A stretch of DNA of 64,000 bases, from positions 7,501 to 71,500 of the forward strand of contig NZ_CP050301.1 in the NCBI RefSeq assembly GCF_014189505.1, read 5' to 3'. Position numbers and translations under genes: made by a program. The notes below the pieces were generated by a model that saw nothing but the letters and a program-made list of their open reading frames with translations, searched no databases and was not told the DNA's origin. This document shows positions 36,253 through 63,911 of the stretch, one piece after another. The DNA comes from Phyllobacterium sp. 628. GTDB taxonomy: Bacteria > Pseudomonadota > Alphaproteobacteria > Rhizobiales > Rhizobiaceae. The stretch's first letter is position 1; every line of letters starts with the position of its first letter.

Positions 36253-36921
36253 TCATCCCACCGGTGTACCATCCCGGCCACGGGTTGCAGCGTAATAAGC
36301 CCAGAAAAGCCGGGCTGCGACACCCCTCCAAGGCGACCAGCGCTCCGCCAAAAGCCGCAGGGATTTCGAATCAGGCTTCACTGATTCGGCATAGGCGTGG
36401 GCATAGGCATGCTGCAAAGCCACATCCCCGGACGGAAATACATCCGCATGTCCCGCTGAAAACAGAAGATAAACCTCCGCTGTCCACGGCCCGATCCCCT
36501 TCACATTGGTCATGATGGTCATAGCCTCGTCGATGGGCCGGTCGCAGAGATCGAAAAGGTCGAGTTCGCCGGCAATGATCGCCTGGCTGATGCGGGCAAG
36601 GGTCGCCTGCTTGGCCCGCGACAATCCCGCCAGCCGCCAGGCTTCCTCTCCAGCGGCAATATAATTTTCCGGCGTCAATGGATCGACATGGTGCACCAAT
36701 CGCTTCCAGATCGAATCGGCGCTGGCTTTCGATACCTGTTGCGAGACGATCACCGAGGCAAGGCTTTCAAAACCCGGCGCCTGCCTGCGCAATGGCAAGG
36801 GTCCGGCGCGCGCGGCAATGGCTGCCAGTTCCGGATGCGCCACCATCAAGGCGGCAAGCCCTTCCGCAACATCGTCAAGCGTGTCTATTCTGCGCATGCC
36901 TTGCCACTCACTTTTCATCAT
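36253..36921 (-). CDS. alkA: DNA-3-methyladenine glycosylase II (AlkA-type)
   Basis: This 222-aa base-excision glycosylase has the helix-hairpin-helix plus Gly/Pro-Asp motif: VKGIGPWTAEVYLLF (about 155-169) followed by the catalytic Asp in VFPSGDVAL. The VIVSQQVSKASADSIWKRL segment near 58-76 is typical of the AlkA branch that removes alkylated purines. There is no N-terminal AraC-like Ada domain and no TATA-like AlkA N-domain, so it is the short form. An alternative ATG at 36897 would remove 8 residues. It is divergent from gluQ with 51 bases between the starts. Confidence 0.9.
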   Translation of the reverse strand: MMKSEWQGMRRIDTLDDVAEGLAALMVAHPELAAIAARAGPLPLRRQAPGFESLASVIVSQQVSKASADSIWKRLVHHVDPLTPENYIAAGEEAWRLAGLSRAKQATLARISQAIIAGELDLFDLCDRPIDEAMTIMTNVKGIGPWTAEVYLLFSAGHADVFPSGDVALQHAYAHAYAESVKPDSKSLRLLAERWSPWRGVAARLFWAYYAATRGRDGTPVG

Positions 36922-36972
36922 CCAACAAACACCGTATCAATCCTGAAGGTCCTCACGCAAGAATCCCAGTTC

Positions 36973-37827
36973 ATGACTGTCCCGGTTTTCCGTTTTGCTC
37001 CCAGTCCCAATGGCCACCTGCATCTCGGCCATGCCTATTCCGCCTTGCTGAATCAGCAAATGGCAGGGGAAACCGGCGGACGGCTGCTGCTGCGCATGGA
37101 GGATATCGACCGAGAACGCTGCACGCCCGAACTCGAAGCCACGATGCAGGAGGATTTGCGCTGGCTGGGTTTCAATTGGGAAACGCCGGTGCGCCGTCAG
37201 TCCGAACATTTCGAAGTTTACCGTGTGTCGCTGGATAAATTGATCCACATGGATCTGGTCTATCCGGCATTCCTCAGCCGTAACGACATCAAGCACGCAG
37301 TGCAAAAGGCCACAGCAGAGAATCGTGTTTGGCCCCATGATCCGGACGGCGCAGCACTTTATCCCTTATCCGACCGCACACTCTCCCCAAGTGAACGCGC
37401 GAAACGCATGAATGCAGGACGCGCATTTTCATGGCGTCTCAACATGGACCGGGCGATGGAACATGTCAGCCAGACGCTGTTCTGGAACGAGACCGGGAAC
37501 ACCATTCAGGCGCGGCCGCTGGACTGGGGTGACGTCATCATTGCGCGCAAGGACATGCCGACGAGCTATCATCTCTCCGTGGTTATTGATGATGCGCTGC
37601 AAGGCATTACCCATGTTGTGCGCGGCAAAGATCTCTTTCACGCCACCAGCATTCACCGGCTGTTGCAACACATTCTCGGGCTCGAACCGCCGATCTATCA
37701 TCATCATGCGCTGATCCTCGATCAGGATGGCCAGAAACTTTCCAAAAGCCGGAAGGATACCGCATTGCGCTCCTTGCGTCTGGAAGGGATGACGCCTCAA
37801 CAGATTCGCGAACGCGTTGGGCTTTAG
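36973..37827 (+). CDS. gluQ: Glutamyl-Q tRNA(Asp) synthetase
   Basis: GluQ (YadB) attaches glutamate to the queuosine base of tRNA-Asp. The 284-aa protein resembles the catalytic half of glutamyl-tRNA synthetase: a HIGH-type motif HLHLGH at 15-20 and a KMSKS-type GQKLSKS near 255, with no anticodon-binding domain, which is the hallmark of the family. The frame extends far upstream inside the alkA region; the ATG at 36973 gives the family N-terminus MTVPVFRFAPSPNG. A palindromic repeat element follows the gene. Confidence 0.93.
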   Translation: MTVPVFRFAPSPNGHLHLGHAYSALLNQQMAGETGGRLLLRMEDIDRERCTPELEATMQEDLRWLGFNWETPVRRQSEHFEVYRVSLDKLIHMDLVYPAFLSRNDIKHAVQKATAENRVWPHDPDGAALYPLSDRTLSPSERAKRMNAGRAFSWRLNMDRAMEHVSQTLFWNETGNTIQARPLDWGDVIIARKDMPTSYHLSVVIDDALQGITHVVRGKDLFHATSIHRLLQHILGLEPPIYHHHALILDQDGQKLSKSRKDTALRSLRLEGMTPQQIRERVGL

Positions 37828-37854
37828 GGTCAACCATCACAGAATATGGCTCCC

Positions 37855-37995
37855 ACCCTCCCCCAACGTGGGGAGGGTCGCTGCGCAGCGGCGGGGTGGG
37901 GGGACTCACAACCGCCACGCTCTCTTACGTTTCAGATTTGTTATTCCCCCCACCCCGGACCTGACGGTCCGACCCTCCCCACGTTGGGGGAGGGT
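37855..37995. repeat. Palindromic intergenic element, copy 1 (inverted orientation)
   Basis: The 141-bp element has 26-base outer arms (37855-37880 and 37970-37995) that are exact reverse complements, and each arm is itself nearly palindromic (CCCTCCCCC-AACG-TGGGGAGGG type). Inside lie GGGGTGGGGGG (37893-37903) and its exact complement (37946-37956), plus two different small hairpins: CGCTGCGCAGCG on the left and CGGACCTGACGGTCCG on the right. The centre of about 42 bases is unique. It is the same element as 63200-63347 but in reverse orientation. It has no ORF and so would be a non-autonomous, MITE-like or structural repeat. Confidence 0.9.
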
Positions 37996-38109
37996 AAAGT
38001 GGAGGCACCGCTGCATTCTCAGCGCCGCCCACGGAAACAACATCTGGTTGTCAGTCGGTTGTTGGTATAGACACCACAGCAACACATCCATTGATCCGGT
38101 TCACCCATC

Positions 38110-38994
38110 ATGCCCGTTCGTTATTTCCCAGCCCTGTTTGTCCTGTTGTGGGCCACCGGTTTCATCGGGGCCCGCTATGCCATGCCGTATATGGAACCGT
38201 TTTTGTTTCTGACAATAAGGTTTGTCATCGCTGGCGCCATACTGGGCACGTGGGTTGTATTGGCAGGAAATCACTGGCCAAGCCGTCTCGGCGCGATGCA
38301 CGCCATTATCGCGGGCTGCCTGATCCACGGTGTTTATCTCGGTGCGGTGTTCTGGGCCATTCATCGCGGCCTGCCTGCAGGCATGTCGGCCCTCGTTGTC
38401 GGGCTGCAACCGCTGATCACGGCACTGATTGCCGGAGCGTTCCTTAGCGAAAAAATCCAGCCGCGCCATTGGGCCGGGCTGGCCGTCGGTTTTATCGGTG
38501 TCGCCATGGTTCTCTGGCCAAAACTTTCCGTCTCTGCCGATGGCATCACGCCCGCAACAGTCAGCGCATCAATCCTCTCGGTGCTCGCCATCAGCGCCGG
38601 GACAGTCTGGCAAAAACGCTTTGTCGGCACGATTGATCTGAAGGCGGGGACAACGCTGCAATATCTCGGTGCGGCCGTCCTGACGGGCATCTGTTCGCTG
38701 CTGTTCGAGACACATGTTGTGATCTGGGCCGCACCCCTGGGCTTTGCCATGCTCTGGCTGGTGATGGTGCTGTCGATCGGGGCAGTGCTTCTCTTGATGA
38801 TCCTGATCAATCAGGGCGCGGTATCGAAGGTCGCCTCGCTGTTCTATCTCGTGCCCGGCGTTACCGCGTTGATGGCCTACGCGCTTTTCGGTGAAACATT
38901 GACGCTGTTCCAGCTCTGCGGCATGGCCGTCGCCACGCTCGGCGTTGCCCTGTCCACGGGTCAGAGACGCTTGGCAACCCTGCCCTCACGATAA
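38110..38994 (+). CDS. DMT superfamily transporter (EamA/RhaT-like)
   Basis: The 294-aa inner-membrane protein has about ten predicted helices in two EamA repeats. It starts MPVRYFPALFVLLWATGFIG, a common start for this family. Substrate unknown; members export metabolites, amino acids or drugs. It follows the palindromic repeat element and probably has its own promoter. Its last 34 bases overlap the end of the convergent BrkB-type gene. Confidence 0.87.
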   Translation: MPVRYFPALFVLLWATGFIGARYAMPYMEPFLFLTIRFVIAGAILGTWVVLAGNHWPSRLGAMHAIIAGCLIHGVYLGAVFWAIHRGLPAGMSALVVGLQPLITALIAGAFLSEKIQPRHWAGLAVGFIGVAMVLWPKLSVSADGITPATVSASILSVLAISAGTVWQKRFVGTIDLKAGTTLQYLGAAVLTGICSLLFETHVVIWAAPLGFAMLWLVMVLSIGAVLLLMILINQGAVSKVASLFYLVPGVTALMAYALFGETLTLFQLCGMAVATLGVALSTGQRRLATLPSR

Positions 38995-45292: not shown

Positions 45293-45332
45293 CCCGGTGC
45301 CTCCCCAATTCAAGCAGAATTGCAGCACCGGG
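45293..45332. other. Two-tier stem-loop in the hbd-terC spacer
   Basis: An outer perfect 8-bp stem (45293-45300 with 45325-45332) encloses an inner 6-bp stem (45306-45311 with 45317-45322). There is no T run, so it is not a usual terminator. It lies about 80-120 bases before terC and might be a leader structure. Confidence 0.5.
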
Positions 45333-45411
45333 CCCCTCTGGCGAAAGTTACCGGCTCTTTCGTGATGTCGGAGCTGTAATCTGGAACCGATGCCGGCGGA
45401 TCATTTTTCAC

Positions 45412-62215: not shown

Positions 62216-62288
62216 GATTGGGGAGTTCACGGCGGCGGTAACTTGCTATAACGAGAGCTTCAAACTTACCGATATGACCGGGACTCCC

Positions 62289-63074
62289 ATGACGATCATC
62301 CGATCAATTGTCTTCAACATCGCATTCTATCTCAATCTGATCGTTCAGATGATCATCTTCACACCCTATTATTTCCTCAGCCCCCGCAAGAATGCCTGGG
62401 CTGTGCCGAAGAACTGGGCGAAGTCCAACCATTGGTTGCAAAAAACCTTGGCTGGCACTGATCATGTGATTGAAGGTCTCGATAATATTCCCGATGGCCC
62501 GTATATCTGCGCGCCAAAGCATCAGTCCTTCTGGGATGCCTATGCATTTCTGCCGCAGATCGCCGATCCGGTTTACATCCTCAAGCGCGAGTTGATGTGG
62601 ATCCCATTGTTCGGCTGGTACATCCTGAAAATGAAGATGGTGCCGATTGATCGCGGCAAACGCTCTGTCGCCATGAAGACCGCCATCAAGGGTGCGCGGG
62701 AAGCAGTTTCCCAAGGCCGTCAGTTGATGATCTATCCTGAGGGCACACGCACCGCACCCGGTGCACCACCGAATTACAAATATGGCGTGGCGCATATTTA
62801 CAGCGAGCTTGGTGTTCCGGTACTGCCCATCGCGCATGTTGCCGGTCTTTACTGGCCGCGCCGCAAGTTCCGCCGCTTTCCCGGTACGATCCGCTGCCGC
62901 ATCCTGCCGCCGATCCAACCCGGCCTTACACCTGAGGCGTTTTTGAAAAAGCTGCAGGAAGTCACCGAAGCGGCGTGCGATGAACTTTTGATCGAAGCTG
63001 CGCAGTCAAAGAACCCGCCGCCCATGCCACCCACAGCGGTTCAGCGGTTGAAGGAACTGGGTGTAACGGTCTGA
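62289..63074 (+). CDS. plsC: Lysophospholipid acyltransferase (PlsC-like)
   Basis: The 261-aa membrane enzyme acylates lysophosphatidic acid to phosphatidic acid in phospholipid synthesis, or a related lysolipid. Conserved motifs are present: HX4D as KHQSFWD (His78, Asp83), the YPEGTRT substrate-binding motif near 139-145, and a PVLPIAHVAG segment near 177. One or two N-terminal helices anchor it. The ATG at 62274 lacks a ribosome-binding site; the one at 62289 follows GGGA. It ends the ftsE-ftsX-ydcF-plsC run. In Brucella-type genomes several PlsC paralogues exist, so the exact lipid is open. Confidence 0.88.
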   Translation: MTIIRSIVFNIAFYLNLIVQMIIFTPYYFLSPRKNAWAVPKNWAKSNHWLQKTLAGTDHVIEGLDNIPDGPYICAPKHQSFWDAYAFLPQIADPVYILKRELMWIPLFGWYILKMKMVPIDRGKRSVAMKTAIKGAREAVSQGRQLMIYPEGTRTAPGAPPNYKYGVAHIYSELGVPVLPIAHVAGLYWPRRKFRRFPGTIRCRILPPIQPGLTPEAFLKKLQEVTEAACDELLIEAAQSKNPPPMPPTAVQRLKELGVTV

Positions 63075-63103
63075 GATTCGTTTGCTGCAGATGTATTGTA
63101 CGT

Positions 63104-63153
63104 GGTTCGCCCCTCGACAAGCTCAGGAAGCTCACCATGAGGGAGATGAGTGG
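63104..63153. repeat. Small intergenic repeat with a CTCGACAAGCTCAGG core
   Basis: The stretch GTTCGCCCCTCGACAAGCTC followed by AGGAAGCTCACCATGAGGGA contains short inverted parts (GAGC/GCTC) and resembles a small repeat frequently seen between genes in rhizobial and other GC-rich genomes. I identify it by resemblance only; no second copy lies in this window. Confidence 0.4.
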
Positions 63154-63199: not shown

Positions 63200-63347
63200 A
63201 CCCTCCCCCTTGTGGGGAGGGTCGGACCAACAGGTCCGGGGTGGGGGGTACTCAAATAAAAGATAAAGAGTTTTCAAAAACCGGATAGCTGTATTCACCC
63301 CCCACCCCGCTGCTATGCAGCGACCCTCCCCACAAGGGGGGGAGGGT
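63200..63347. repeat. Palindromic intergenic element, copy 2 (forward orientation)
   Basis: This 148-bp element is the same as 37855-37995 in reverse orientation. Outer arms at 63200-63224 and 63321-63347 are reverse complements except for two extra G in the right arm. Their loop bases are TTG/CAA where copy 1 has AACG/CGTT. Inner hairpins CGGACCAACAGGTCCG (left) and CGCTGCTATGCAGCG (right) correspond to the right and left hairpins of copy 1. The central 50 bases are AT-rich and differ from copy 1. It lies between the convergent plsC and ChaC-type genes. Confidence 0.9.
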
Positions 63348-63383: not shown

Positions 63384-63911
63384 CTAACCGACATCGCGAT
63401 TGATCGCAGCCACCAGTGATTCAAACCAGTGGTCACGGATATTCATCTTCTGCATATGTTCGAACGTATTGTGCACATAGTCCTCATTGCGGCCGGATTG
63501 ACCAACCGAGCCCCGAACCGCTGCGGCAGCCTCGTCAACCGTCAATGCTCCGGCATATTGAACATGGTGACGATCAACCACATAGGTCAGCGCTTCAACC
63601 TTGCGGCCATCCTTGAGGCGCACCGCAAGCCGCCTTTCCAGATAGACATTTGTTACCAGCTCCCGCTCGCGCAGATAGGTAACGACTTCCTCTTCCAGCT
63701 CACCCGGCACCCGAAAGGCAAGGCCAAGGCACGAGCCGCCATGGTCAAGACCCAGCACCAGCCCCGGCCGCTCACGCGTTCCGCGATGCACATAGGAATG
63801 CACGCAAAGGGCCCGCCGGTAGCCATATAGACGCGCATGCATCGTCTCGACATGTGCAAAGCCGGGCTTCCACATCAGAGAACCATAGCCAAAGACCCAA
63901 AAATCGCCCAT
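63384..63911 (-). CDS. Gamma-glutamylcyclotransferase (ChaC-like)
   Basis: The 175-aa protein has the cyclotransferase start VFGYGSLMWKPGF (residues 6-18, with the nucleotide-like YGSL loop), RGTRERPGLVLGLDHGGSCLGLAFRVP near 43-69, and an acidic residue position near EELEEEVV that fits the catalytic Glu of the family. ChaC-type enzymes cut glutathione to 5-oxoproline and Cys-Gly; the substrate here is inferred from the family. It faces plsC across the palindromic repeat. Confidence 0.9.
   Translation of the reverse strand: MGDFWVFGYGSLMWKPGFAHVETMHARLYGYRRALCVHSYVHRGTRERPGLVLGLDHGGSCLGLAFRVPGELEEEVVTYLRERELVTNVYLERRLAVRLKDGRKVEALTYVVDRHHVQYAGALTVDEAAAAVRGSVGQSGRNEDYVHNTFEHMQKMNIRDHWFESLVAAINRDVG

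Follow-up and report, generated by a model that had tools for sequence, protein, structure and literature searches.

A dispersed, mostly intergenic repeat of two facing unlike arms with predicted intrastrand triplexes in Phyllobacterium sp. 628 and other Hyphomicrobiales

Introduction

Two palindromic elements with distant matching arms lie in a 64,000-nt stretch of the genome of Phyllobacterium sp. 628 (the whole of this stretch is termed the window here), raising the question of what kind of repeat they belong to, which structure their arms would form and how such copies have spread. The outer arms of copy 1, 37855-37880 and 37970-37995, are exact reverse complements over 26 bases and lie 89 bases apart, in agreement with a first-pass annotation of the sequence that had put the distance at about 90 bases. 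Copy 2 follows the plan of copy 1 in inverted orientation, as annotated as well, with two extra bases in its right outer arm, so that its outer arms are inexact over their full length. The loops read AACG in both arms of copy 1 and TTG in both arms of copy 2, confirming that each copy carries one version.

The reading preferred here, with a probability of about 0.5, is a REP/BIME-type repeat of two facing unlike arms, for each of which a hairpin-capped intrastrand triplex is predicted in the single-stranded state, and which together would form a four-way junction. Three features go beyond the first-pass annotation, namely a mirror tail in each arm, partners that are always unlike and covariation of the inner hairpins. 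No printed description of the repeat family was found in the literature searched, arm strings included, and one may exist elsewhere.

Architecture of the paired element

All four arms in the window (4/4) have the same order from the outer end, consisting of CCCTCCCC, a loop, GGGGAGGG, a T, a small hairpin and GGGTGGGG (Table 1). CCCTCCCC occurs eight times in the window, always within copies 1 and 2, against 1.74 expected occurrences, and none of 100 shuffles reached eight. In each window pair the inner hairpin of one arm is of the CGCTGC type and that of the other arm is of the GGACC type. The gene upstream of copy 1 is presumably GluQRS-like. The extra motif CAGAATATGGCTCCC was found in relatives beside other repeats too.

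Table 1. Positions of the two paired elements, their parts and the adjoining genes in the window
Feature	Position	Strand	Remarks
Copy 1, whole paired element	37855..37995	+	sequence and folding
Copy 1 left arm	37856..37877	+	pyrimidine strand CCCTCCCC (37856-37863), loop CAACGT, purine strand GGGGAGGG (37870-37877)
Copy 1 left inner hairpin, CGCTGC type	37879..37893	+	linker between purine strand and tail; helix covaries
Copy 1 left tail GGGTGGGG	37894..37901	+	exact mirror of purine strand; candidate third strand
Copy 1 spacer	37902..37947	+	differs among copies (alignment of 14 pairs)
Copy 1 right tail GGGTGGGG, read on - strand	37948..37955	-	
Copy 1 right inner hairpin, GGACC type	37956..37971	-	outside the 16-base-insert covariation set
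Copy 1 right arm	37973..37994	-	pyrimidine strand, loop CAACGT, purine strand (- strand reading)
Extra motif CAGAATATGGCTCCC	37840..37854	+	accompanies the CGCTGC arm of several copies; mosaic character
Copy 2, entire pair, in the opposite orientation to copy 1	63200..63347	-	
Copy 2 left arm, GGACC type	63201..63246	+	hairpin 63223-63238, tail 63239-63246
Copy 2 right arm, CGCTGC type	63300..63346	-	tail 63300-63307, hairpin 63308-63322
Gene upstream of copy 1, tRNA-synthetase class Ic domain	36688..37827	+	Pfam PF00749; stop codon 27 bases from copy 1
Gene downstream of copy 1, EamA transporter	38110..38994	+	Pfam PF00892
Acyltransferase gene left of copy 2, convergent pair	62274..63074	+	Pfam PF01553
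ChaC-like gene right of copy 2	63384..63911	-	Pfam PF04752; stop codon 36 bases from copy 2

Both window copies, folded as RNA or as + strand DNA, have a four-way junction as their minimum-energy form, with an outer stem, two side hairpins and an inner stem built by the tails; as DNA, the copy 1 minus strand gave one long interrupted stem without side hairpins. The fold of copy 1 as DNA reached -57.6 kcal/mol against a shuffle mean of -28.1 (z -10.2), and copy 2 as RNA gave a z of -11.1, each with 200 dinucleotide shuffles. These energies hold no triplex term, which leaves a triplex and the junction fold unranked. A role of copy 1 as a terminator was rejected, as no intrinsic-terminator-like site lies within 37700-38150. 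Neither element matched a family of Rfam 15 above its gathering score, copy 1 hitting only microRNA models far below theirs, and copy 1 had no match in phage records at E 1e-5. A transcript of the elements was likewise not found.

Covariation and retention of the inner hairpins

The inner hairpin was aligned from arms with a 16-base insert only, of which 67 were kept and 40 were distinct. In these distinct arms 97.9% of the cells were paired, compared with 72.8% in shuffles, and 62 double changes were counted, compared with 18.7, both values being reached in 0 of 500 shuffles, a figure that is no probability, as the sequences are related. When the partner was shifted by 1 to 3 columns, pairing fell to 24-50%. 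Weaker measures gave less, since the four pairs observed with a double change were reached in 186 of 500 shuffles and the further pair types in 10 of 500. On these alignments the inner hairpins are real, and the compensatory changes within them support the retained structural role that the first-pass annotation had offered as one of its explanations.

Three sites of the Phyllobacterium sp. 628 genome (G000) carry a family element at the same place in the congener G008, one of them also in the congener G019. At site 1521k, GGACT/AGTCC in G000 stands against GGACC/GGTCC in G008, a compensatory double change, and the right arm has decayed in G000. At site 1667k, GCACC/GGTGC in G000 and G008 corresponds to GCAGC/GCTGC in G019, which is compensatory again, and the other hairpin bears an uncompensated change in G008. 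Four R. tropici-group plasmids have the element at a conserved site, between the genes for a substrate-binding protein and an ABC ATPase (annotation from one plasmid), where the stems, hairpins and tails are near-invariant and the spacer has diverged. These comparisons show long retention of the elements at some sites. The element at 1667k is an inside-out pair with its tails outside, present at this site in all three species (L024 at G000:C1:1667069, L292 and L304).

The mirror tail as a candidate third strand

Read in reverse, GGGTGGGG gives GGGGTGGG, which corresponds to GGGGAGGG with T opposite A. An arrangement of GGGGTGGG with GGGGAGGG in which T stands opposite A is the layout of an antiparallel purine-motif triplex, termed class II in PMC4666352. 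The tail mirrors the purine strand at 8/8 positions in 4/4 window arms, where at least six triads had been set as the threshold, and the linker from purine strand to tail measures 16-17 bases. From this mirror layout each arm is predicted to form an intrastrand triplex, and the arms have one grammar of pyrimidine strand, loop, purine strand, hairpin and mirror tail.

The tails also track other purine runs, GGGGAGAAGG being accompanied by GGATGAGGGG, GGGGAGAGG by GGGTGAGGGG and GGGGAGAGA by AGAGAGGGG. Among asymmetric 10-base purine runs (179 loci), a perfect mirror tail was found in 22/57 hairpin readings and a perfect direct copy in 0. For 9-base runs, with overlapping runs of one hairpin tallied separately and every hairpin read on both strands, a tail being possible on one of them only, 64/163 readings had a mirror and 4 a direct copy, against 1 mirror after a single shuffle; 15 of the 64 mirrors belong to the AGGGGAGGG run, which had served to select many loci. 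The purine-run classes GGGAGAGGA (9 readings) and GGGGGAGAA (7) showed no mirror tail. As the copies of a family share ancestry, the mirror counts amount to only a handful of independent families. The sister family of GGGGAGAAGG with the tail GGWWGWGGGG was detected in 26/199 genomes at 488 places (summed by hand), with 1 match in the backward control, compared with 4 places in 4 genomes for the direct-order pattern (199 scanned). Members with GGGGAGAAGG, hairpin and GGATGAGGGG were seen in G045, G088, G089, G103, G121, G147 and others, reaching 91 places per genome. In some arms the T required in the third strand is replaced by C, as in the left arm at the Rhizobium site (4/4 plasmids) and in the 864k copy of G000, so the triplex is not strictly kept.

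It is somewhat unlikely, in our estimate, that these are ordinary REP/BIME heterodimers whose G-rich tails only pair across the spacer, the mirror relation being incidental. In the minimum-energy folds the two tails are indeed paired across the spacer, heterodimers are common in the CGTC and GTAG REP families according to PMC3733652, and the position at gene ends fits REPs, a stop codon lying within ~113 bases of 9/10 clearly intergenic pairs in G000. Pairing across the spacer needs no mirror within the same arm, however, yet such a mirror was found in several families with different runs.

A G-quadruplex is improbable; it would stack four G runs, drawn from purine strand and tail, and have the inner hairpin for a duplex loop. 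GGGGAGGG and GGGTGGGG indeed supply four G runs, each three bases or longer, with loops of one base and the hairpin between them, but this fold gives no role to the conserved pyrimidine strand, and the sister family of GGGGAGAAGG and GGATGAGGGG keeps the same plan without four runs of three G in those segments. Moreover, in PMC4666352, NMR of the related E. coli motif favoured a triplex over a quadruplex.

The predicted triplex arms resemble the PIT/TM-ECO intrastrand triplex motifs as presented in Holder et al. 2015 (PMC4666352), where pyrimidine strand, purine strand and mirror third strand follow in the same order with T or A opposite A, and where the motifs are likewise intergenic and sometimes in inverted pairs. 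That study gives loops of 1-6 bases, the second loop being 3 in TM-ECO, whereas the arms here have a 16-17-base linker with a covarying 6-bp hairpin and unlike partners. It also describes the related E. coli motif as a triplex in vitro, with in vivo footprinting giving no support to a stable triplex, and the ITxF search for such motifs as limited to loops of 1-6 bases. If the triplex is true, motifs with a linker hairpin would escape surveys that limit loops to six bases. One locus in Rhizobium tubonense (L077) carries a triplex motif of the E. coli type, GGGGAGAGGG TTA GGGTGAGGGG, with a 3-base linker.

Unlike partners in each pair

Identical inner inserts were found in 0/153 pairs from five sets, the first eight bases being common in one pair, with the qualification that 91 of the 153 pairs come from loci fetched via a GGACC arm and the collection is no unbiased sample. 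In genome G134, for which all exact-pattern arms were considered, 22/22 convergent pairs differ in class against an expectation of 51%, and 0 of 100,000 shuffles reached this result; 62 of 63 rows were used, two rows being one arm listed twice, and 20/22 pairs were fetched as sequence. In the sister family, at least eight convergent pairs among the matches listed for G089 are all unlike (counted by eye), and one divergent like pair was seen in G078. Across the sets examined the arms obey a rule of unlike partners.

In PMC3733652 the preference of REPs for unlike pairs is described as having no obvious explanation. The present family provides a clean case of this habit, as the outer stems are alike and the inner hairpins are unlike (153/153) and covary within the arm. 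Three-stranded arms as predicted here would open the pairing of unlike with unlike to test.

Agreement of loops between the two arms

The first-pass annotation had read the agreement of loops within each copy as a sign that the two arms are kept paired or are copied onto each other, and had proposed covariation of the loops across copies as a check. The summed edit distance between the loops of a pair, compared after removal of the leading C, was below the permutation mean in three genomes, with 17 against 25.0 in G000 (p 0.016, n=12 pairs), 12 against 19.0 in G008 (p 0.037, n=9 pairs) and 10 against 22.8 in G134 (p 0.0002, n=20 pairs). Identical loops were present in 5/12, 4/9 and 11/20 pairs, respectively. 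In genome G153 the arms differ in loop in 7/7 pairs parsed, a set for which a recognisable pyrimidine strand was demanded, 21 pairs being obtained without that demand. In the four R. tropici-group plasmids, the left loop is nearly constant and the right loop has changed alone.

The agreement is therefore a tendency, given the partial identity, the mismatches in G153 and the lone right-loop change in the plasmids, and strict arm-to-arm maintenance of the loops is ruled out by the same observations. The annotated covariation holds above chance in three genomes, with loops that are often non-identical or changed on one side alone. A relation between the arms stands in weakened form, being favoured by the above-permutation loop agreement and by the outer arms, which are paired to one another in 102/153 DNA minimum-energy folds; the outer cross-arm stem is missing in the other 51, 46 of which are from the named Hyphomicrobiales set. 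Loop agreement probably came along with the inherited copy or was restored when one arm was copied onto the other, and copying of whole elements with occasional arm-templated repair would explain the loops better than a strict need for pairing.

Copy number and distribution

The Phyllobacterium sp. 628 genome (5.25 Mb, 94% complete) contains 30 matches to the arm pattern, compared with 0 in the backward control; 29 of the 30 are arms, the exception being the match at C3:302073, which has no pyrimidine strand. At least 14 full pairs of the family were aligned in this genome, chosen by hand, 12 of its own pairs passing the automatic rule. The total length of the elements is roughly 110-180 bases.

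Two of the 14 pairs (499.4k and 499.7k) are in ftsY, two (768k and 864k) overlap an ORF of a crude caller and 10 are intergenic, four of these between convergent, five between co-directional and one between divergent genes. In line with the general description of REP/BIME, the palindromes here are short, scattered over the genome and for the most part intergenic, and they often face one another as pairs; the family is a dispersed repeat of the REP/BIME type with two facing unlike arms that is mostly non-coding.

A scan of named genomes returned at least 109 matching stretches, and all but one of the 80 titles listed are from genera that we take to be Hyphomicrobiales, the exception being a metagenome-assembled genome labelled Rhodobacteraceae. 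The arm pattern is present in 67/199 sampled genomes of Hyphomicrobiales. At class level a slightly narrower pattern matched 14/289 genomes, including G000 and one more of the order, with some of those listed lacking an evident hairpin.

Spread and the search for a mobilising enzyme

The spread of the family is real, as indicated by the many copies, the absence of the element at the orthologous slots of both window copies and the copies in ftsY. The element is absent from the copy 1 slot in 19/19 congeners, four of which (G008, G009, G015 and G019) have other long inverted repeats there, and from the copy 2 slot in 4/4 relatives. In G008 and G015 the latter slot holds a different repeat pair, GTCATCCTCGGGCTTGACCCGAGGA, resembling CGTC-type REPs by eye.

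Copies within ftsY occur in two species (L061 at G000:C1:499286-499893, and L298 in G008). The reading frame of ftsY in G008 is continuous through the pair, and the arms would consequently be translated within the acidic region of the protein. The site in G000 has repeated units with frame shifts between them, a change of frame that may be real or an assembly error, and the C-terminal part there is FtsY-like (Pfam SRP54 and SRP54_N).

Mobilisation by an enzyme encoded elsewhere, as the first-pass annotation had suggested, agrees with the real spread, but the known mobiliser of REPs, the Y1/RAYT transposase, was not detected as Y1_Tnp in G000, where completeness of 94% makes a missing gene possible. 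Y1 transposases are present in 29/199 sampled genomes of the order. Arm matches numbered 10 or more in 24 genomes, counted by hand from tables over the 199 genomes; of these 24, Y1_Tnp was found at E 1e-3 in seven (one below the family cut-off) and in none of the other 17, which include the four copy-richest genomes, G103, G153, G032 and G133.

It is hard to credit that these are MITE-like elements whose outer inverted repeats are the substrate of a conventional transposase, even though terminal inverted repeats, the short length and the location inside ftsY in two species would suit this view. The unlike inner hairpins and the inside-out pairs (1667k) misfit a transposon with fixed ends, and a target-site duplication was unreadable by eye, as the empty regions could not be aligned (19 congeners for copy 1, 4 genomes for copy 2 and two plasmid sites). 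Least credible of all is a RAYT-mobilised REPIN, to which the dispersed inverted pairs and the seven copy-rich genomes with Y1 transposases would correspond, since Y1_Tnp is missing from G000 and 17/24 copy-rich genomes at the above threshold and GTAG is in neither window copy, leaving RAYT mobilisation unsupported.

Proposed mechanism and comparison with known systems

Under the preferred reading of facing arms with predicted triplexes, the selected feature would be the folded structure, as DNA during replication or as RNA past the stop codon of a gene. The two unlike side hairpins would fix the junction and block one long perfect hairpin, which structure-specific nucleases would destroy. New copies might arise as whole units from the copying of single-stranded DNA, helped by a non-RAYT factor, and loop agreement could then follow from copying as a unit together with arm-templated repair.

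A tentative and rather unlikely extension holds that such triplex pairs are a distinct class, in which the obligatory difference of the arms fixes the four-way junction and allows a switch between two triplexes and the junction, several families with the same grammar having evolved in Hyphomicrobiales and the structure, rather than a sequence tag, being recognised by a single-strand copying factor.

Several known systems share parts of this plan. The RIME elements of Rhizobium, attributed to Osteras 1995, are reportedly rhizobial intergenic palindromic mosaic repeats, and the likeness of the present family to them lies in this description. REPIN/RAYT systems likewise have inverted REP pairs spreading as a unit, in contrast to which RAYT was undetected in G000 and 17/24 copy-rich genomes. 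The GTAG tag of GTAG REPs is absent from both strands of both window copies, and GTGG is present, including inside the tails after the hairpin.

BIME/REP heterodimers of the GTAG and CGTC superfamilies, in the account of PMC3733652, are similar in being short palindromic units in facing pairs, often unlike and near gene ends, and differ in that the outer palindromes are shared here and only the inner hairpins are unlike. The A. tumefaciens CGTC-3 dimers of the same account resemble the elements here in having two stem-loops at the ends of the spacer. The CGTC REPs described there bear a CGTC tag, and stem positions 1-2 are A-T pairs, whereas the outer stems here have no tag beside them and start with one A-T pair followed by G-C; the only CGTC in the two window copies sits in an inner hairpin of copy 1. 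The Bradyrhizobium repeats Br-REP1 and Br-REP2, as described in PMC5082802, are also alphaproteobacterial 3'-end REPs with stem-loops and are seen in RNA, with a consensus unlike the arms here when compared by eye.

What is new would be the combination of a REP heterodimer with an intrastrand triplex motif, both of known kinds, with a covarying linker hairpin and a consistent difference between the arms. The literatures on REP/BIME and on intrastrand triplex motifs are thereby joined in one grammar, whose third strand follows the changes of the purine strand. Structure-driven spread without RAYT becomes testable if the triplex is true.

Neighbouring elements in the window

A second abundant palindromic repeat is centred on TTCGACAAGCTCACCATGAGGGAGA and lies beside copy 2 at window ~63101-63148, with a further occurrence at L007:1398-1460 and many copies in four congeners. 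A terC RNA was recognised at window 45320-45380 on the + strand (Rfam RF03067, 56.2 bits, gathering score 39.9).
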